Shown here piece after piece: positions 15,273-35,931 of a stretch of 36,145 nt of DNA (the stretch's first letter is position 1; every line of letters starts with the position of its first letter). Location: positions 1 to 36,145 of IMG/VR virus record IMGVR_UViG_3300036985_001673; one strand, 5' to 3'. The position numbers and the translations under genes were made by a program. The notes below the pieces were generated by a model. The model was not told where the DNA came from, searched no databases, and saw only the letters and a program-made list of their open reading frames with translations. The DNA comes from a virus.

Positions 15273-15604
15273 TCTATGATTGATGATTCCACACCTGTTT
15301 CATGTTTGATTTCTGTTCTTTCCACATATCCCCTGCCCTTACCTTTTGTTTTTAAATGGAATATGATTGCCACTATGTTTTCTTTATTGATCTGGCTATG
15401 TAGCTTTGATTCTGACAGATCCAATGCTATATCATTTATTTCCTCTACTTGTTGTTTATAAACAGGATCTGTGTTCATCCATAGGTAATGTGTAGTGCGT
15501 TCAATACCGATTAGCTTTGCAGCTGTAGTAACGATGCCCAAAGATTTTTCCAATGCTTGGATCATTCGCTTTTTATTCCCTTCTGTTGCTTTTGCCCTTC
15601 TCAT
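15242..15604 (-). CDS. Probable terminase small subunit
   Basis: 120 residues. A helix-turn-helix is visible at about residues 20-45 (LGIVTTAAKLIGIERTTHYL), followed by DPVYKQQVEEINDIALDLSE and helices that could build the oligomer. The C-terminus (IIEWTPAKIENE) overlaps the large subunit start. Small terminases bind the packaging site, and position immediately before terL is the main support. Its ATG overlaps the ParB-like gene stop (ATGA). A general HTH regulator is the alternative. Confidence 0.75.
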   Translation of the reverse strand: MRRAKATEGNKKRMIQALEKSLGIVTTAAKLIGIERTTHYLWMNTDPVYKQQVEEINDIALDLSESKLHSQINKENIVAIIFHLKTKGKGRGYVERTEIKHETGVESSIIEWTPAKIENE

Positions 15605-16104
15605 TTGCTTAATCTTACATTATAACCCTTTTCAATTAATTCTGTGTATGCTTTTTGCCTTGATTCCTCATCATTAAATGTCAATTCAACTAAAAACAAA
15701 TCGACCGGTGATTCCTCTGGTTCCGGTTCTACTGATGGTTCAAATACCGGCACCTCTAAACCCCAATCATTTAGCAGGTGTTCATCCCATTGGTTGGCTA
15801 ATATATCCCAATCCCATTCACCATACCCTACATTATCTTTAATAATAAATTCCTTTTGCTGATCAGCTGTTAAATTATTTGCCCTAATAATTGATACTCT
15901 TTTTAATCCGGCTTCAATGCAGGCTTTTAATCGCATATTACCCCCCAACACGATCATATATTCATCTACAACAATGGGCCGTAAAGCTAACATTTCGGGA
16001 AAATCCTTTATAGATTTAACCAATTTTTTAAATTTGTCATCCTTAATAAACCTTGGATTAGATGGATTAGGGATAATCAGCTTAATGTTTACTTCTTCAA
16101 TCAT
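15601..16104 (-). CDS. ParB/sulfiredoxin-fold protein upstream of terminase
   Basis: 167 residues. The N-terminal ~90 residues are a ParB-like domain: IPNPSNPRFIKDDKFKKLVK, RPIVVDEYMIVLGGNMRLKA and CIEAGLKRVSIIRANNLT, with the GGNMRLKA box where ParB carries GxxRxxA. TADQQKEFIIKDNVGYGEWD is typical of phage ParB-like proteins. An acidic Pro/Glu linker (EPSVEPEPEESP) leads to a small C-terminal strand-helix unit. In phages this domain is often fused to DNA methyltransferases. Here it stands alone next to the small terminase, and the phage methyltransferase is 4 kb away. The role may be DNA-site recognition or nucleotide-dependent clamp formation, unproven. Confidence 0.82.
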   Translation of the reverse strand: MIEEVNIKLIIPNPSNPRFIKDDKFKKLVKSIKDFPEMLALRPIVVDEYMIVLGGNMRLKACIEAGLKRVSIIRANNLTADQQKEFIIKDNVGYGEWDWDILANQWDEHLLNDWGLEVPVFEPSVEPEPEESPVDLFLVELTFNDEESRQKAYTELIEKGYNVRLSK

Positions 16105-16670: not shown

Positions 16671-16904
16671 TTAATTTTGTTTTTGATTTTGCAACTTACT
16701 GATTAGGTTTTTAAATTTTTGTAATCTGATAAATGCCATTCTTTTATCCTGTGGGCAATGGCCCTGTAAACGATCCATGGTAACTGCCACAAATATTCTT
16801 GAATTGGTGATCCTTTCCCAACCTGTTAGCTGAATATCTATGGATTCATTGGATAATAGGTATTGGTGGCCCCAATCCCATGCAGCTTGATAATTGGGTT
16901 TCAT
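16671..16904 (-). CDS. Hypothetical protein, 77 residues
   Basis: I do not recognise a family. The product begins MKPNYQAAWDWGHQYLLSNE, contains ITNSRIFVAVTMDRLQGHCP and ends in a Lys/Gln-rich helix (RLQKFKNLISKLQNQKQN). It is soluble, with no signal or membrane segment. Its ATG overlaps the nuclease stop (ATGA), so it is co-translated with the VRR-NUC enzyme and ends the replication-side operon. Confidence 0.65.
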   Translation of the reverse strand: MKPNYQAAWDWGHQYLLSNESIDIQLTGWERITNSRIFVAVTMDRLQGHCPQDKRMAFIRLQKFKNLISKLQNQKQN

Positions 16905-17314
16905 CTTAATATTTGTTCTTGTAGCTTACCATCTGTGAATCCAGATCTGTATCCGGCTTGATACAGATCTATAATTGGATCTGATTTAAAGATCCTTAAC
17001 ACATCAATTAACTCATCCAATGATCTAACTATTTTGTAGCAATATCCATGGTGTTCTACCATTGATTGAAATTTCTTTTGATTTGGCTGTTGCTTACGAT
17101 TTGCAAACTTAACTTCAATGAACAGGCCATGATGTGTATTATTAGCCATTACAATAAATAGATCAGCTGCGCCGGCCCTTAATCCCTCGGCATTTAATGC
17201 CCTTCCTACCCTTGGATGTCTTAACCCACCATTTGGAATGCTAAAAAAATCATAGCCATTCCAATCAAGATACTGACATAGAATTACTTGCAGGTGATGT
17301 TCCTCTTTTTTCAT
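16901..17314 (-). CDS. VRR-NUC domain nuclease
   Basis: 137 residues. The PD-(D/E)xK core is clear: SIPNGGLRHPRVGRALNAEG, then LRAGAADLFIVM with Asp51, HHGLFIEVKFA with Glu67 and Lys69, and the following QQPNQKKFQSMVEHHGYCY with the typical Gln. RAGAxDLF and FIEVK are the signature of the VRR-NUC family (PF08774), found as stand-alone Holliday-junction-type or structure-specific nucleases in phages. It probably resolves branched DNA from recombination or replication, or trims DNA before packaging. The last ~30 residues (ESDPIIDLYQAG-like tail) lie outside the core. Confidence 0.9.
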   Translation of the reverse strand: MKKEEHHLQVILCQYLDWNGYDFFSIPNGGLRHPRVGRALNAEGLRAGAADLFIVMANNTHHGLFIEVKFANRKQQPNQKKFQSMVEHHGYCYKIVRSLDELIDVLRIFKSDPIIDLYQAGYRSGFTDGKLQEQILR

Positions 17315-18021: not shown

Positions 18022-18759
18022 TTAAAATAATTGACCATTTTGATCAAATCTGACATCCATGTTTACCATAGATTGGATAAATTCTTGATAATATGCACTT
18101 TTATGTAGCGCATCTAGTTCTATTTCATTCAAATTAGATCTGTAAATCTTTGCTTTTATTCGATTTTTATCCGATTCTGGACATTCATATAATCCGAATT
18201 CTACTAAATGATCATACAATTGATAATAACCACCGGAAAACCACTTAAATTCTTTGCCCATTTTTACCATTAGATCTGCATGGCCATTGGCATTATTGAT
18301 TGCCATCATTTTTAATTCTTCTTGTGATGGTGGATTTTTAGGGGTTTCCATTTTTGGCAACTTTGCAAGCTCTGCCAATTCTACCTGTTTTCGTTCTATG
18401 TACTTCCGGATCCATTGAACAAAATTGGATGAATTAAAAAATACCTGTTGATCTCTTTGCAGAAATTCACCGTTCAACCCCATTTTTAAACCAATCATAA
18501 TTTCATCTTTTGTTAGATTTCCGAACAATTCCAGATCATCAGTTAGAATTACAATTTGCGCCATGTCCTCATTTTGATTCTCTGATCTTAATGATAATTT
18601 CATTTTTGCAATGGCCCAGATCTGTGTGGCTAAATCTGTCTTTTCGCTTGGTAGCATTAGCATCAATTTTGTAGATGCCTGTGCCTGCACTATTTTGTTT
18701 TGCAGATTGCTAATATTAATCACCGATGGCGAATGGATTTTTATAAGTTCCGTTTTCAT
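18022..18759 (-). CDS. Hypothetical replication-module protein, 245 residues
   Basis: No family is recognised. It is mostly helical and soluble, with segments such as SEKTDLATQIWAIAKMKLSL, LTKDEIMIGLKMGLNGEFLQ and SSNFVQWIRKYIERKQVELA. There is no Walker A motif, so it is not a DnaC-type ATPase loader. It starts 44 bases inside the end of the DUF4373 initiator gene. That overlap and order suggest a partner in replication initiation, in the place where helicase loaders or their helpers often sit; this is inference from context only. Confidence 0.75.
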   Translation of the reverse strand: MKTELIKIHSPSVINISNLQNKIVQAQASTKLMLMLPSEKTDLATQIWAIAKMKLSLRSENQNEDMAQIVILTDDLELFGNLTKDEIMIGLKMGLNGEFLQRDQQVFFNSSNFVQWIRKYIERKQVELAELAKLPKMETPKNPPSQEELKMMAINNANGHADLMVKMGKEFKWFSGGYYQLYDHLVEFGLYECPESDKNRIKAKIYRSNLNEIELDALHKSAYYQEFIQSMVNMDVRFDQNGQLF

Positions 18760-19495
18760 GTAGTTTTTGGATTTGTTGTCGTGCTAATTCTATATTATCT
18801 AAATTGGTTTGGTGTTTGCCCTTAACTTGATTTTGAGAATTGTAAATAATTGGATTGCTAAATTTATTATTATTATTCATCCAAGTATTAATCCTTCTTA
18901 AAATATCAAAATATTTTTCGGCTTCCCATCGTTCTTTTCCTTTATTATCTTTTTCTGTCCAATAAGAAAAAAAGTTATCATATTCAGAATTTAATAAATC
19001 AATATGTGGCGAAAGCATTTCGCTAAAACCTACTTTACTTTCATTTACTTTAATTTTATTTACTTTACTTTCATTTCCTTTACTTTCCTTTGTTGAACGG
19101 TCGTTGAACGGTCGTTGAACGGTCGTTGAAATATCTATTGATTTTCTTTTGTCTGCACTTTTTTGACCTGCCACTTTTCTTTGTTCTTTCATCTTAAAAT
19201 ATGGCTCTAAATAAACCAACATCTTTGGACTAAAGAATTTTTGTTCTTCATCAATTTCAAATAATCCATAGTTACAAATGGCAACTCTGACCTTTGCTTC
19301 TGATACATTAAATTCCTCTGCTAAAAGATCCAGATCCTCTAATGGATACATCAAATCCTGCTGTTCTCTTAATGTTTCTAATAGCATAAAATAAATGCCA
19401 TAACCTTCCGTTCCAAGTTCTTTTCGTAACCTACGGATTTTCCTGTCATGTCTTGCATTACAAAAATGCGGGAAATAAAATGCTTCTTTTTCCAT
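18716..19495 (-). CDS. Replisome organiser / initiator, DUF4373-type N-terminus
   Basis: 259 residues. The N-terminus reads AFYFPHFCNARHDRKIRRLR, then LGTEGYGIYFMLLETLREQQ and a winged-helix-like LDLLAEEFNVSEAKVRVAIC; this matches the DUF4373/Lin1244 N-terminal domain of phage replisome organisers. A Lys/Asn/Ser-rich linker (~105-155) is encoded by repetitive DNA, including 11-bp iterons. The C-terminal part (FFSYWTEKDNKGKERWEAEK, then ILRRINTWMNNNNKFSN) is DnaD-tail-like, a helicase or ssDNA contact region. It should bind the origin and recruit the host helicase. It begins two bases after the methyltransferase gene. Confidence 0.8.
   Translation of the reverse strand: MEKEAFYFPHFCNARHDRKIRRLRKELGTEGYGIYFMLLETLREQQDLMYPLEDLDLLAEEFNVSEAKVRVAICNYGLFEIDEEQKFFSPKMLVYLEPYFKMKEQRKVAGQKSADKRKSIDISTTVQRPFNDRSTKESKGNESKVNKIKVNESKVGFSEMLSPHIDLLNSEYDNFFSYWTEKDNKGKERWEAEKYFDILRRINTWMNNNNKFSNPIIYNSQNQVKGKHQTNLDNIELARQQIQKLHENGTYKNPFAIGD
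19093..19130. repeat. 11-bp iterons inside the initiator gene, candidate origin
   Basis: TTGAACGGTCG is repeated three times head to tail (19093-19103, 19104-19114, 19115-19125) with five bases of a fourth. The 11-bp period is not a multiple of three, so the repeats encode different residues and were not selected as protein repeats. Beside them, 19028-19090 is a very AT-rich tract with a 16-bp repeat (19031-19046 and 19061-19076), like a DNA-unwinding element. Confidence 0.65.
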
Positions 19496-19497
19496 AT

Positions 19498-20166
19498 TTA
19501 AATTCTATTTGAAATTATTTCACAATATTTTTCATCTATCTCACAACCTACTGAATCAAATCCACAGTTTTTTGCAGCTATCATTGTTGTTCCGCTTCCT
19601 GCAAATGGATCAAAAATAATATCACCATCAATTGCTGTAATTTTTATAATTCTTTCCATCAATTCGATTGGTATTTGGCATGGATGTTCTGTTTTTTCTT
19701 TACTTACATTTTTTACTTGGTTAATTTCCCACCAATCATACAATTTTGCCCCTATTTTGCCATCCTGAATCCTTTGTTGTATTCTTTTATCATTTAGGTT
19801 TTTGTATGGCTGTAATTCTTTTCTAAAATCAGGTTTGCAACCCCACCAAGAAATTAATCGTGATTGCTTACCTGTGTTTGAATTATAAACCCAAGATACT
19901 ACCTGTGAACATTCTGTATTAATTGCTTTTGGTAAAATATTGATTGTTTCTTCTGGATAATGAATAATAATACAAGGACTTTTTATACATTTCAATAAAT
20001 CAATGTATTCATCATTTTTTAAATTATCGCTGTATTTTAAATAATGATAATTCTGATTATATGGTGGATCAGTAATTGTTAAAACCCTATTAAAACCTAA
20101 AAAGGGATTTGAATTAAAATCAACATTCCTAAAATCTTGATTTAAAATTGTTATTTTATTTTCCAT
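19498..20166 (-). CDS. DNA methyltransferase, amino-group (beta-class order)
   Basis: 222 residues. Catalytic motif IV DPPY is at 33-36 (LTITDPPYNQNYHYLKYSD) and the AdoMet-binding motif I, DPFAGSGTT, is at 186-194. That order, IV before I with the target-recognition part between, is beta-class. EHPCQIPIELMERIIK precedes motif I, as usual in N6-adenine/N4-cytosine enzymes. CEIDEKYCEIISNRI closes the fold. It modifies phage DNA, probably against host restriction. No cognate nuclease is present. Specificity cannot be read from the sequence. A promoter box lies upstream, and the initiator gene follows two bases downstream. Confidence 0.9.
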   Translation of the reverse strand: MENKITILNQDFRNVDFNSNPFLGFNRVLTITDPPYNQNYHYLKYSDNLKNDEYIDLLKCIKSPCIIIHYPEETINILPKAINTECSQVVSWVYNSNTGKQSRLISWWGCKPDFRKELQPYKNLNDKRIQQRIQDGKIGAKLYDWWEINQVKNVSKEKTEHPCQIPIELMERIIKITAIDGDIIFDPFAGSGTTMIAAKNCGFDSVGCEIDEKYCEIISNRI

Positions 20167-21679: not shown

Positions 21680-22147
21680 TTATTTTACTGTTTTTTTGAT
21701 TGATGTTGTAGATTTTTTTGATGCCGGATAAAATTCGTGTGCCTCACCTGTTTCAGGATTTACAGTAGTGGTAAAATTGGTGATGGCTTTACAGAATCCT
21801 TCAATTTCTTTTTGTTGCCTTTTAAGGAAACTAATTTGATCCTCAATATCATTCCATTTCTTGGTGGCTGTATAATCATAAGATGTGCCGACCTCTGCTA
21901 TGGCAAACTCCACCCCATGCACATTATGCTTTCCACCTAATTTGTGCAGTTCATCAATTGATTTCTGCTTGATTCCCTTATCTACCGTTTCAAATAAGAT
22001 CTGAAATTTAGATATGATGGCCAATTGAGTTAATGGATCTTTTAAAGATACATCAAATTCATCCACCATAACTTGCGCCTGATGGATGATTTCTTGTTTA
22101 TCCATGTTAATAATCATGGATGGTTTTAATGTTAATTCATTTTTCAT
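21680..22147 (-). CDS. Hypothetical protein of the recombination cassette, 155 residues
   Basis: I do not recognise the family with certainty. MDKQEIIHQAQVMVDEFDVS, LTQLAIISKFQILFETVDKG and NDIEDQISFLKRQQKEIEGF are helical, with coiled-coil character near residues 105-125. VHGVEFAIAEVGTSYDYTAT and NPETGEAHEFYPASKK resemble stretches found in uncharacterised Bacteroidota phage proteins beside recombinases. It is encoded between ERF (ATGA overlap) and SSB-like genes, so a role assisting strand annealing is plausible but inferred from position. Confidence 0.75.
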   Translation of the reverse strand: MKNELTLKPSMIINMDKQEIIHQAQVMVDEFDVSLKDPLTQLAIISKFQILFETVDKGIKQKSIDELHKLGGKHNVHGVEFAIAEVGTSYDYTATKKWNDIEDQISFLKRQQKEIEGFCKAITNFTTTVNPETGEAHEFYPASKKSTTSIKKTVK

Positions 22148-22719
22148 TTTAATTGGTTTTTACGGTTGGTAAATAATTTTTTAACTTGATTTATTTTTAT
22201 GTATTCAGGTTCTAATTGATCCCATAATGCTAACACTTGGCCTAATTCAGTACAGGTATTTAATGAGTTAATCAATTCAGTTTCCTCATCTTTGTTTAAT
22301 TTAATTTCCTCTATCACTACATTAGGTTTAGTTTCTGTGGATGTCGCATCAGAATCCTTATTATCATCCAAAGCAAATAATCCATTTAACGCATATTTTC
22401 GTGAGTAACTTCCTGTCGTTCCAGAAATCTGCGCAGAATCCATGCCCTTTTTTTCTTCAGGTTCTCTGGCATAAGATGTGGCGCTGTAGGAATTCTCGCC
22501 ATTGCTGATGGTGGCTGTGGCTTTGATGTAATATCTCTCGCCTATGATCACCATTTCATCGGATAGGATCAAATGGTATCCCTTGGGATTTATAATCGGC
22601 TTAACAGCTTCTATGATGTTTTCAGCTGACCTATAGGCATATTTTCCAAAGGAATTAAATTTATTCTTTGGTGCCTGTACTTCGGCCTGTATAATGGCCA
22701 AATCATTTTTTGCATTCAT
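22144..22719 (-). CDS. ERF-family single-strand annealing protein
   Basis: 191 residues. KNKFNSFGKYAYRSAENIIE, AVKPIINPKGYHLILSDEMV, IKATATISNGENSYSATSYA and MDSAQISGTTGSYSRKYALN with GLFALDDNKDSDA are the ERF superfamily core (PF04404), including the strongly conserved Q(I/V)xGxxxSYxRKYAL. It anneals complementary single strands in phage recombination and end repair. The C-terminal ~60 residues (EETELINSLNTCTELGQVLA) are the usual variable tail. SSB-like and possibly accessory genes follow in the same operon. Confidence 0.93.
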   Translation of the reverse strand: MNAKNDLAIIQAEVQAPKNKFNSFGKYAYRSAENIIEAVKPIINPKGYHLILSDEMVIIGERYYIKATATISNGENSYSATSYAREPEEKKGMDSAQISGTTGSYSRKYALNGLFALDDNKDSDATSTETKPNVVIEEIKLNKDEETELINSLNTCTELGQVLALWDQLEPEYIKINQVKKLFTNRKNQLK

Positions 22720-31654: not shown

Positions 31655-34600
31655 CTAGGTAACAATTTTAACAGTTCCACCATCATTGTATAAACTTCCT
31701 GCAGCTAATCCACCACCTGATGTCGGCAAATCCATTCCTATAGTATCACTACTAATTGATATTTTAGTTTTAAATGTTGTACTTGCCCATATTCCTAAAT
31801 TTAAAGCACCCGTATCCTGTGTAGCCCATATTCCAGAAACATTAAAACTTGCATTATATCCTATGGCAATTCCTTTTTTTACGCTTTCATCTTGCATAAA
31901 TCTTGCAAAAATTTGCACCGTAGTTCCTCCGCCTCTATAAACAGAATTAAATGCCGTAGATGCTGATCTAATCGCATTTAAGGTGTATCCATCTGTAGTG
32001 GAATTAATACCTAAATTACCTGCATTATTATAAATTAAACTATTTCCTAATCCTGTTGTTGATGTCCATAATGGCATAAAATTAGTAGATCCGGATCCGC
32101 TAACACCCCCTATTGTCCATGATCTGTCAACTGATAAATCAAGTGCAGTTCCGTTTATAGTCAATGTTCTGGATGTTGGAACATAAGATGATAAATCACT
32201 TGTTAATGCTAAAGTACCGGTTGCACTTGGTAGTGTGTAACTATATGTGCCGTTAGATATTGTACTGCTTAATGTTAATACACCACTGACTCTTGTAGTA
32301 CCAACAACATCTAATTTAAAACTTGGACTTCCTTGATTTATACCCACATTACCATCCCCTCTGATAAGCATAGCGATACTGTTGTCATTCTTAATCATCT
32401 TTACTACCTCACTACCCGTTCCTAAATCTCCTCCTTTTAATACTGTGCCATATTGCCCTCCATTAACATAAAATTTGTATGATGCTGTTGATGTAGTTCC
32501 AATTGCCACATCCCCTGTACTTGTAATACGCATTCTTTCCGATGGAGTAAAATTGGTATTTGCCGTTAATCCACTATTAGTATAAAATTTAATTATACCA
32601 TCATTCAATCCAATAACTGTTGATGTAGTTAAATCACTATACCATAAAGATGAATTATTATAATATGATTCCCCCGAAATGTATTTATAACCTCCTGCTT
32701 GTACTGAACCAATATAAACTCCACTTCCATCTGAATAATCTTTAAACTTGGCATTATAAAATGGTGCGACGGTCATTCCAACTGACAATGTACCATTTAT
32801 ATCAATTTTACTTGATGTTTCAGAAATAATACTATTACCTATCGCACTTCCACTTGTAAACTTAGCAACATAGTTTGTTGTACCTGAAATAGTTCCTGCA
32901 CCAGAACTTCCACTTGTACCAGCTGTTCCATTAAGCGCAGAGGTTCCTGAAGAACCTGATGTACCAGTTGCTCCACTAGTTCCACTTTGTCCACTTGAAC
33001 CAGAAGATGCTGACGATCCACTGGTTCCGCTAGACCCCGAGGTACCAGATGAACCTGAGGTTCCTGAAGATGCTGAAGTACCTGTTGTTCCAGATGAACC
33101 ACTAGTACCAGAACTTCCAGAAGAAGCGGATGTTCCTGAAGATCCATTAGTTCCACTAGTTGCTGATGAACCAGATGTTCCTGAAGATCCTGAAGTGGCA
33201 GAAGTTCCACTACTACCACTAGTTGCAGAAGTACCACTAGACCCACTACTACCAGATGTAGCAGAAGTTCCAGATGAAGCTGAAGTTCCACTGCTTCCTG
33301 AGGATGCACTTGTTCCTGAAGAACCAGAGCTTGCACTAGATCCACTTGATCCACTAGTTGCTGAGGTTCCTGATGAAGCTGATGTTCCTGTAGAACCAGA
33401 GGTTCCACTTGTACCATTAACTCCAGATGTACCTGATGTTCCTGAAGGAGCGTTAAATGTTGTTTGTGCGTATGAGTAATAAGAACTACCTTCTGTATAG
33501 AAGTTTAATGTATGTGATACACCATTGATATTCTTTGAATTAATCTGTGCATAAATTCTATCACTTGCATTTAATGATTGTCCAGTAACAAAAGTATCAC
33601 AATATAACTGTTGAATATTTACTCCATCTAATGCAACTAAAACAGTGTTAGTTGTACCTAATAAAGTACTTACACCACCCATTGTATATTTATAAAGAGT
33701 TACATATACCTCCCAGCTAGACGCAGAGTCTGCTAAGAAGTGTAAAGTAAATGACCAGTTACCAGCAGTGAATGTTGTTTCGTTAGGCACACCACTATCT
33801 GTAGCAAATGTAGCAATGACACCACTTGCACCACCTGCTAATATAATATTTGCAGTGGTCTGAGCTGATGCACTTGGGTTAGGGCTTAACTGTTTATATG
33901 TAGGAGTTCCAAATGCTGTGTTAGTGTTATTAGACAAGTTCATGTAATACACTTGTCCACCAGAGATACCTGATGCACCACTTGATCCTGAGGTTCCTGT
34001 TGTTCCAGATGATCCTGATGAACCTGAGGTTCCTGCAGATGCAGATGAACCACTAGTTGCGGATGTACCAGAAGATCCTGATGTTGAAGATGTACCAGCT
34101 GTTGCAGAAGTACCACTAGAACCATTAGTTCCTGAGGTTCCACTTGAACCATTAGAACCAGACGTGCCACTAGACCCACTACTACCAGATGTAGCAGACG
34201 TCCCTGAAGAACCAGAACTTCCTGACGTAGCACTTGTACCACTAGTTCCAGCAGATCCTGATGTTGCACTGGTTCCAGAACTAGCTGATGATCCAGACGT
34301 AGCACTTGTTCCACTTGAACCTGAGGTTCCACTAGATCCTGATGTTCCTCCACTACCACTTGTTCCAGAAGATCCACTAGTTCCGCTTGAACCATCAGTA
34401 CCTGAGCTTCCATTTGTACCACTTGATCCTCCTGTACCTGAAGTACCTGATGACCCATTAGTACCTGACGAGCCAGATGTTCCTGAAGAACCAGACGTAC
34501 CACTTGATGCAGACGTACCGCTTGTACCAGATGAACCATCAGTTCCAGTTGTACCACTTGTTGCCGAAGATCCTGAAGATGCAGAAGTACCTGATGATCC

Positions 34601-35821
34601 AGAGCTAGCTGATGTACCAGAAGATGCTGAGGTTCCATTAGAACCATCTGTTCCAGATGTAGCTGATGTTCCTGAACTTGCAGAAGTTCCTGAACTTCCA
34701 TTTGTTCCAGATGAACCATCTGTACCAGTTGTGCCAGAGGTTCCACTTGATCCATCAGTTCCAGATGAACCGTTGGTTCCTGATGAACCGCTAGTTGCAC
34801 TAGTACCAGAAGATGCTGAAGAACCTGATGTACCGTTAGTACCTGAGGTGGCACTAGAACCTGAGGTGCCTGATGAACCATCACCACCTGCAGCTCCAGC
34901 TAAGTTAATACTCCAAACAGAATATGTACCACTTCCTGTAACAGCAGAAGGTAAAGGTGCTTCAAATACTAATTGACCAGTTGCTGAATCATAACTAGCA
35001 ATATCACATATTTGATAATTAAGATAATCATATGCAATCAATACAGACTGTGCAGCTGTAAATGCTAGTCCTGGTTGAACCATTAACGTACCACCATTAC
35101 CTAATGTAAGAGTACCTGTTGAGAACGTTTTATATATATCACCTGTTAATCCTGAAGAACCAGAGGTGCCTGAGGAGCCAGAAGATCCTGAAGTTCCAGA
35201 GGAACCTGACGTTCCAGAACTTCCTGAAGTTGCTGAAGAACCACTAGTTCCGCTAGTTCCTTTTATACCAGAAGACCCACTTGTGCCACTAGATCCTGAG
35301 GTTCCTTGTGTACCAGCACGTCCACTAGTACCTGATGATCCAGAAGAACCAGAGGTACCTGCTGTTCCCTGTCTACCACTTGTAGCAGAAGTACCATTGG
35401 TTCCTGAGGAACCTGATGTACCATTAGTGCCACTTGTACCTGTAGTTCCTGATGTACCTGTATCAAAGTTACCTAATGTACCATCACCTAATACCACTTG
35501 TTGGTTTGTACCACCAGCTGTAACAAAGGCAGGGGCATTTATATCTCCTTGTAATGTAAGACTATAGTTTCCTGTAATAGTTGTATTTTGAATCAATGAT
35601 CCACCAAGTCCTACGGGAGCACCTGGTGTAGTTTGAATAATACCATTGTTAAATACATACCCAACCATTGCATCACCAAAGGCTGCATCAATCTTCTGTA
35701 AAGCTAACTGTAAGTTATCATTAGTGTTAATGCCTGTATATATCAAATTGGCTCCCTCGTAGAATACGCATTGGGAGTTTAATATAACGGGACACTCGAA
35801 GGTTGAGCAATTTATATCCAT
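31655..35821 (-). CDS. Gly-Thr/Ser-rich fibre protein, possibly a chimera of two genes
   Basis: 1,388 residues from the preferred ATG at 35821 (MDINCSTFECPVILNSQCVF); a start at 35851 is also open. Residues 1-125 form an attachment domain (YEGANLIYTGINTNDNLQLA). Long collagen-like stretches of GTSGSSGTSG follow, broken by two beta domains near 35110-34890 and 33950-33440. From 32863 down come fibre modules like those of the giant left-edge fibre (NYVAKFTSGSAIGNSIISET, SPSFKLDVVGTTRVSGVLTL) and an end GSLYNDGGTVKIVT, typical for Bacteroidota fibres. Upstream of 32863 the codons favour AAC, TTC and AAG; downstream AAT, TTT and TTA, as in the rest of the phage. No S74 chaperone domain is seen. 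The two halves may come from different genes. Confidence 0.7.
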   Translation of the reverse strand: MDINCSTFECPVILNSQCVFYEGANLIYTGINTNDNLQLALQKIDAAFGDAMVGYVFNNGIIQTTPGAPVGLGGSLIQNTTITGNYSLTLQGDINAPAFVTAGGTNQQVVLGDGTLGNFDTGTSGTTGTSGTNGTSGSSGTNGTSATSGRQGTAGTSGSSGSSGTSGRAGTQGTSGSSGTSGSSGIKGTSGTSGSSATSGSSGTSGSSGTSGSSGSSGTSGSSGLTGDIYKTFSTGTLTLGNGGTLMVQPGLAFTAAQSVLIAYDYLNYQICDIASYDSATGQLVFEAPLPSAVTGSGTYSVWSINLAGAAGGDGSSGTSGSSATSGTNGTSGSSASSGTSATSGSSGTNGSSGTDGSSGTSGTTGTDGSSGTNGSSGTSASSGTSATSGTDGSNGTSASSGTSASSGSSGTSASSGSSATSGTTGTDGSSGTSGTSASSGTSGSSGTSGSSGTNGSSGTSGTGGSSGTNGSSGTDGSSGTSGSSGTSGSGGTSGSSGTSGSSGTSATSGSSASSGTSATSGSAGTSGTSATSGSSGSSGTSATSGSSGSSGTSGSNGSSGTSGTNGSSGTSATAGTSSTSGSSGTSATSGSSASAGTSGSSGSSGTTGTSGSSGASGISGGQVYYMNLSNNTNTAFGTPTYKQLSPNPSASAQTTANIILAGGASGVIATFATDSGVPNETTFTAGNWSFTLHFLADSASSWEVYVTLYKYTMGGVSTLLGTTNTVLVALDGVNIQQLYCDTFVTGQSLNASDRIYAQINSKNINGVSHTLNFYTEGSSYYSYAQTTFNAPSGTSGTSGVNGTSGTSGSTGTSASSGTSATSGSSGSSASSGSSGTSASSGSSGTSASSGTSATSGSSGSSGTSATSGSSGTSATSGSSGTSGSSATSGTNGSSGTSASSGSSGTSGSSGTTGTSASSGTSGSSGTSGSSGTSGSSASSGSSGQSGTSGATGTSGSSGTSALNGTAGTSGSSGAGTISGTTNYVAKFTSGSAIGNSIISETSSKIDINGTLSVGMTVAPFYNAKFKDYSDGSGVYIGSVQAGGYKYISGESYYNNSSLWYSDLTTSTVIGLNDGIIKFYTNSGLTANTNFTPSERMRITSTGDVAIGTTSTASYKFYVNGGQYGTVLKGGDLGTGSEVVKMIKNDNSIAMLIRGDGNVGINQGSPSFKLDVVGTTRVSGVLTLSSTISNGTYSYTLPSATGTLALTSDLSSYVPTSRTLTINGTALDLSVDRSWTIGGVSGSGSTNFMPLWTSTTGLGNSLIYNNAGNLGINSTTDGYTLNAIRSASTAFNSVYRGGGTTVQIFARFMQDESVKKGIAIGYNASFNVSGIWATQDTGALNLGIWASTTFKTKISISSDTIGMDLPTSGGGLAAGSLYNDGGTVKIVT
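32737..32863. repeat. Edge direct repeat, copy 2 (identical to 1-127)
   Basis: Exact 127-base match to the left edge, in the same reading frame of a fibre gene. If the window is cut here and joined to base 1, the circle is 32,736 bp. Confidence 0.95.
32890..35460 (-). repeat. Low-complexity Gly-Thr-Ser coding repeats
   Basis: Three blocks (about 32890-33440, 33960-34890, 35140-35460) encode hundreds of three-residue G-(T/S/A/N/D)-S units. They are degenerate at the DNA level, built from words such as GGTACATCAGGATCT. They resemble collagen-like or polyglycine-helix fibre shafts. The long Pro/Glu/Val open frames on the other strand are shadows of this. Confidence 0.85.
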
Positions 35822-35931
35822 AGTGATATTTATAAATATTTTACATACCAAATAGTAGTAAAAATAGTTAAATAATTTTAGTTGTTACGTCTAGTATATA
35901 AACTATAATATATAATATAGCAATAGGAAAC

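Follow-up and report, generated by a model that had tools for sequence, protein, structure and literature searches.

A candidate replication origin inside a phage initiator gene and the correspondence of its 11-bp iterons with a protein tail motif

The window, the whole stretch of 36,145 nucleotides analysed here, carries a replication initiator gene whose coding sequence contains an array of 11-bp repeats next to an AT-rich stretch, and on sequence evidence the two elements very probably constitute a replication origin. The more specific reading, that positions 19031-19131 are the origin of this phage, placed inside the initiator's own gene and bound and opened by the initiator, is in our judgement likely. 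Iteron origins located within a gene are of a known kind. What appears to be novel is a correspondence between a short motif in the initiator protein and the type of iteron in its gene, for which few independent switches are available. The features involved are the following.

18022-18759, minus strand: following gene in the operon (245 aa), at the place where other phages have a DnaC or lambda-P-like loader.
18716-19495, minus strand: replication initiator gene (259 aa), assigned from the open reading frame and from matches to PF14297 (E 3.8e-15) and PHROG 2562 (E 1.1e-18).
18752-19027, minus strand: coding stretch of a C-terminal helical domain (residues 157-248, AlphaFold2 model), by analogy a candidate replisome-recruiting part.
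19031-19091, no strand assigned: AT-rich tract, a candidate duplex-unwinding element (TRF, composition, adjoins the array in relatives).
19092-19131, plus strand: iteron array, three copies of GTTGAACGGTC and, at 19125, part of a fourth core, GTTGAA (TRF, core positions).
19139-19228, minus strand: long helix (residues 90-119, AlphaFold2 model) ending in the tail motif.
19145-19171, minus strand: tail motif AGQKSADKR (class AGxxSAxxR), a candidate specificity element (conservation, 43:0 pairing of class and iteron).
19229-19477, minus strand: region encoding the Lin1244_N domain (residues 7-89, from the Pfam range), a predicted winged helix (AlphaFold2 pLDDT ~95 over most of it, structural matches).

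The GTTGAAC cores of the array begin at 19092, 19103 and 19114 and are followed by GTTGAAA at 19125, with a spacing of exactly 11 bp throughout. The repeat unit is best drawn as GTTGAACGGTC, with the fourth, partial core extending to 19131, and it is near-palindromic (GTTSAAC). TRF places the array at 19092-19130 with a period of 11, 3.5 copies and 100% matches, which bears out the three and a half codon-breaking 11-bp repeats of the initial annotation. The array is out of codon phase because 11 is not a multiple of 3, and the peptide it encodes is STTVQRPFNDRST. The adjacent AT-rich direct-repeat tract of about 60 bp, claimed in the same annotation, was likewise recovered by TRF; it spans 61 bp directly adjoining the array and has a period of 15 with a 5-bp sub-period (86% matches). 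Its AT content is 80%, versus 69% for the gene and 66% for the window, and its plus strand contains 38 T, 12 C, 11 A and no G. The tract keeps the codon phase and encodes K-V-N-E-S repeats.

Periodicity in the window gene was compared with that of 1000 synonymous-codon shuffles, which keep both the protein and its codon usage. At lag 11 the gene reaches 24/24 matches (p = 0.001, the floor of this test), lag 22 is also at the floor (p = 0.001), and the lags of the AT tract (10, 15, 20 and 25) give p = 0.004-0.025. Since the periodicity of array and tract exceeds that of protein-preserving shuffles, both elements are DNA-level features. A search for further iteron copies across the window gave, besides the array itself, a single match with two mismatches at 18467, which is at chance level. 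A GC-skew switch near 19.1 kb, suggested earlier as a check, is absent; the skew is negative throughout the window and comes nearest to zero at 22-24 kb. Skew is a weak test for an origin here because almost all of the main genes are on a single strand, the minus strand.

The initiator protein matches PF14297 (Lin1244_N), which we take to be the family formerly named DUF4373, over residues 7-89 with 56.8 bits against a gathering cut-off of 25, and the earlier statement that a DUF4373-type gene hosts both elements agrees with this match. The matching PHROG 2562 is annotated as 'replication initiation protein'. Beyond PF14297, the Pfam search (up to E 0.1) returned only a sub-threshold match to DpnI_C and none to RepA_N (PF06970), Phage_rep_O (PF04492) or DUF1376 (PF07120), and sequence-profile searches of the PDB found no credible relatives. 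An hhalign comparison of the window family with DUF1376 (A3 vs A4) gave 99.1% and E 1.4e-18, a score that is inflated by the aligned array-encoded peptide. All 38 aligned relatives of the window protein match PF14297, and in these the tail-motif residues A109, G110, S113 and R117 are each at least 90% conserved. In the AlphaFold2 model, built from the same 38 relatives, the N-terminal domain is confident and residues ~125-153 are of low confidence; the latter form the linker encoded by array and tract. The repeats that break codon phase and the AT tract are thus located between the coding parts of the N- and C-terminal domains. In structural comparisons the N-terminal domain matched chiefly winged-helix proteins, at moderate Z (best 7.0; 4pql with Z 6.1, 3.9 Å over 85), values that may reflect a common fold only. 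The model of a DUF1376 protein gave similarly moderate matches, perhaps again of a common fold only, to a RepA-DNA complex (5kbj, Z 6.4), 4pql (Z 6.5) and DnaD (2v79, Z 5.4); its list also has 4pt7 and 4pta and includes origin-recognition and RepA/DnaD winged helices. Overall, the structural Z scores are about 6-8.

The initiator gene lies in a gene cluster. Directly upstream is an N6_N4 DNA methyltransferase gene (19498-20166), and the cluster also includes a ParB_N-like gene (15601-16104), a VRR-NUC gene (16901-17314) and a gene for an ERF annealing protein (22144-22719), all on the minus strand. The product of the next operon gene, 18022-18759, gave no usable family match in Pfam and PHROG searches. 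Farther along, a 1398-aa minus-strand ORF (31655-35851) with dense 9-, 18-, 27- and 36-bp repeats probably encodes a protein of fibre or adhesin type and is overlapped by long antisense ORFs, for example 34164-34976 on the plus strand.

In viral contigs 74 related loci were found, many with the exact repeat. Where the exact 22-mer is missing, the hinge of nearly all intact relatives has an 11-spaced array with small substitutions beside a T-rich tract. The most distant relative, L075, has no 11-spaced array and tract at the hinge, and in L074, a fragment, the inspected region falls outside the hinge. Of the six peptides used for the search, one was taken from the AT tract, so that conservation of the tract is slightly ascertained; none included the array. 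Essentially all intact close relatives carry both elements. A lack of the repeats in homologous initiator genes had been named at the outset as an observation that would refute the proposal, which withstood this check.

The distribution of the iteron extends well beyond these relatives. The exact 22-mer TTGAACGGTCGTTGAACGGTCG occurs in 115 viral stretches (0 for a control with its letters reversed), with hosts or contexts that range from Bacteroidota to Moraxella and Rahnella; the array is present in Moraxella phages and, with changes, in Pseudomonas phages. The genes that host it belong by Pfam to Lin1244_N or to DUF1376 (PF07120, YdaU-like), apart from a few with no Pfam match, and its position is typically after the N-terminal domain. 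In annotated phages the array-hosting gene adjoins a gene for DnaC or for 'replication protein P'. Among 99 distinct contexts the three codon phases of the array are represented 70, 17 and 11 times, with one further array in the opposite orientation. As the array is read in all three phases, it is the DNA and not the peptide that is conserved. A related 20-mer is present in 14 contigs from bacterial genomes, among them records of Dysgonomonas, Tannerella, Prevotella, Rahnella and Marinobacter, and complete E. coli genomes gave no match to the array. Some of the 14 matches lie outside initiator genes (L190, within an ORF resembling a helicase; L200; and L189 and L198 of Hymenobacter) and probably represent chance matches or unrelated repeats. 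A Geomonas diazotrophica contig (L196:1221-1337) has about a dozen 11-bp units TTGAACGGT(A/C)G outside any initiator gene, between an ORF of 342 aa that has an HExxH motif and an excisionase-like HTH ORF beside a type I restriction-modification gene; this run may be a chance minisatellite, or else the same iteron in a different context.

The shuffle test was extended to both families. In 67 viral DUF1376 genes lag 11 exceeds synonymous shuffles in 39 (p<=0.01) or 58 (p<=0.05), in a set that favours array-carrying relatives because the genes were found by their N-terminal domain with query rows that were mostly array-bearing. Other significant lags in this set are 7 (32 genes), 22 (27), 14 (24), 21 (14) and 6 (13), and every remaining lag is significant in 0-5 genes only. 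The best lag-11 windows are mostly at codons 100-128, the hinge, or at codons 51-56, a second array. Such a second GTTCAAC-type array, in opposite orientation within the part coding for the DUF1376 domain, is found at L203:3187-3230 and L204:3166-3211. A sample selected by family only, consisting of 64 non-redundant DUF1376 and Lin1244_N genes from genomes with the genes of three seed genomes left out, has a significant lag 11 (p<=0.01) in 9/64 genes, where ~0.6 would be expected. Here lags 10, 15 and 20 are prominent in Lin1244_N, with the AT tract as their source; in DUF1376 the prominent lag is 7, produced by TTATTGG-type tracts. Most Bacillota Lin1244_N genes have AT-tract periodicity instead of an 11-bp array. 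Of ten control genes (lambda O and Phage_rep_org_N), one had a lag-11 signal with p<=0.01.

Comparison of protein tails with arrays revealed that the motif AGxxSAxxR (class A) accompanies GTT(C/G)AAC iterons and that [SA]AxxRW (class B) accompanies ATGC-type iterons. The motif patterns were set after seeing about eight genes, after which further relatives were collected and 147 non-redundant genes scored. Class A motifs occur with class A arrays in 43 genes (37 DUF1376, 6 Lin1244_N) and class B motifs with class B arrays in 22 (17 and 5, respectively), versus 0 crossed pairs in either direction; Fisher's test gives p 8e-18, a figure that ignores relatedness. No array was scored in a further 12 genes of class A and 9 of class B, several of which have arrays that are visibly degenerate, and 57/147 genes of both families have neither motif nor these arrays. 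A control region farther downstream scored arrays in 2/147 and 1/147 genes. Lin1244_N proteins with SAKKRW have ATGCGAACGCA arrays beside an AGTAAAG-type tract, as in the window. Other 11-bp units are of the ATGCGnnCGCA type (L229, L472, L295), AACGGCGTTCC (L233) and the GGGACA type (L245). The DUF1376 proteins of L279, L280 and L244 end in a GGRP-type, AT-hook-like tail with neither motif A nor B, and no clear iteron could be assigned to these tails.

These observations suggest, tentatively, that the motif with which the long helix ends decides between the 11-bp iterons, GTTSAAC or ATGCGnnCGCA type, in two families and several phyla, and that exchange of a small motif together with the in-gene array could switch origin specificity; we hold this with somewhat less than even confidence. 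Trees of the N-terminal domain, calculated with the motif left out, bear on the number of independent events. For DUF1376 the best tree has five switches, two of which are forced by supported branches, and for Lin1244_N there are two switches for the motif and one for the array. All independent motif-array pairs agree, in numbers too few for a significant sign test. The small count of forced switches (two supported in DUF1376, one in Lin1244_N) would also suit an explanation in which the hinge is a recombination seam and motif and array travel as a linked cassette, so that their association reflects linkage and not recognition. The two are within tens of codons of each other, and plasmid pPR9 provides a precedent for exchange of a domain plus origin. 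However, codon phase and the distance between motif and array vary from gene to gene, yet no crossed pair was found. We regard linkage as rather unlikely, though a serious alternative; it competes with reading of the iteron by the motif and not with the role of the array as an origin. The limited set of literature that we searched contained neither a single iteron shared widely between phyla nor the motif-iteron correspondence, TTGAACGGTCG retrieved unrelated papers only, and DUF1376 and DUF4373 are mentioned in papers of which none, judging from title and abstract, deals with the protein.

In phage lambda the origin lies inside the initiator gene O, with the order N-terminal domain, iterons, AT-rich tract and C-terminal domain. 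The same layout and order of parts are found in the window gene, and in annotated relatives the position in the operon, before a helicase-loader gene, is also that of O. However, the window protein does not match Phage_rep_O, and the Phage_rep_O gene that was tested has its signal at lag 20, at codon 118, and not at lag 11. The analogy with lambda O drawn in the initial annotation is therefore retained for layout but neither for protein family nor for iteron spacing (~20 vs 11 bp). Replisome-organiser genes of lactococcal and staphylococcal phages also have in-gene binding sites; of seven Phage_rep_org_N loci found, five were run, and one reached p = 0.01 at lag 11.

The Rep protein of plasmid pSK41 is at least as close an analogue as lambda O. 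Its N-terminal winged-helix domain of ~120 residues binds four Rep boxes located centrally in its own rep gene, and the box-encoded linker before the C-terminal domain is dispensable (PMC5703833). As in the window gene, central in-gene repeats encode a linker between N- and C-terminal domains, and RepA_N structures are among the structural matches of the DUF1376 model. On the other hand, the window protein does not match RepA_N in Pfam, and here the repeats form a plain 11-bp tandem array in tailed phages of mostly Gram-negative hosts. A further parallel is YdaU of the Rac prophage, a DUF1376 protein followed by the putative ATP-binding protein YdaV; its N-terminal part ends in AGKASV and at the hinge its gene carries a degenerate GTTCAA array, but this array is weak (p ~0.02). 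At the level of the prophage, Rac of E. coli has an active origin, oriJ (PMC3945230).

In view of the above, the following mechanism can be considered. Copies of the initiator would bind the 11-bp iterons, whose spacing of about one helical turn would place them on about one face of the DNA. Recognition of the GTTSAAC iteron would fall to the N-terminal part, in which AGxxSAxxR, where the long helix ends, is the likely determinant of specificity. Both GTTSAAC and TGCGnnCGCA have dyad symmetry, which suits binding by a dimer. Initiator binding would then strain and open the adjacent AT-rich tract, after which the C-terminal domain, perhaps with the product of the next gene, could bring in the replicative helicase.

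The array might instead bind the initiator mainly for autoregulation or copy-number control, through handcuffing or by repressing the replication operon, in which case the strands would open elsewhere. Plasmid iteron arrays serve both as origins and in autoregulation or copy control, and the second array at codons 51-56 of some DUF1376 genes (L203, L204) would be in agreement with such a role. In the relatives examined, however, the G-free AT-rich tract adjoins the array in a constant order, which is the layout of a lambda-type origin, and we consider a mainly regulatory array improbable. It is very improbable that a host factor binds the iterons in place of the phage initiator. Many origins do involve host DnaA and IHF, but an identical iteron is used with hosts of several phyla and its type follows a phage-protein motif in both Pfam families. 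Finally, although the array is translated and the linkers of these proteins are of low complexity (RPFNDRSTTVQ plus KVNES repeats here), retention of the repeats for a protein-level role, with the DNA pattern as a by-product, is hardly credible, as one DNA array encodes different peptides in three phases and the 11-, 22-, 7- and 14-bp periodicities surpass protein-preserving shuffles.

For the initiator itself, the reading we prefer is thus that of a protein acting at an origin in its own gene. DUF1376 and Lin1244_N are large families of 'unknown function' or with loose names, and the data point to a likely role for them and to a concrete DNA target recognisable in the sequence itself. Candidate origins could be located in many uncultured phages from the arrays, and the correspondence between protein motif and DNA repeat is simple and testable. 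If it is true, exchange of motif and array would explain rapid change of origin specificity in phages, and hence of their replication compatibility.
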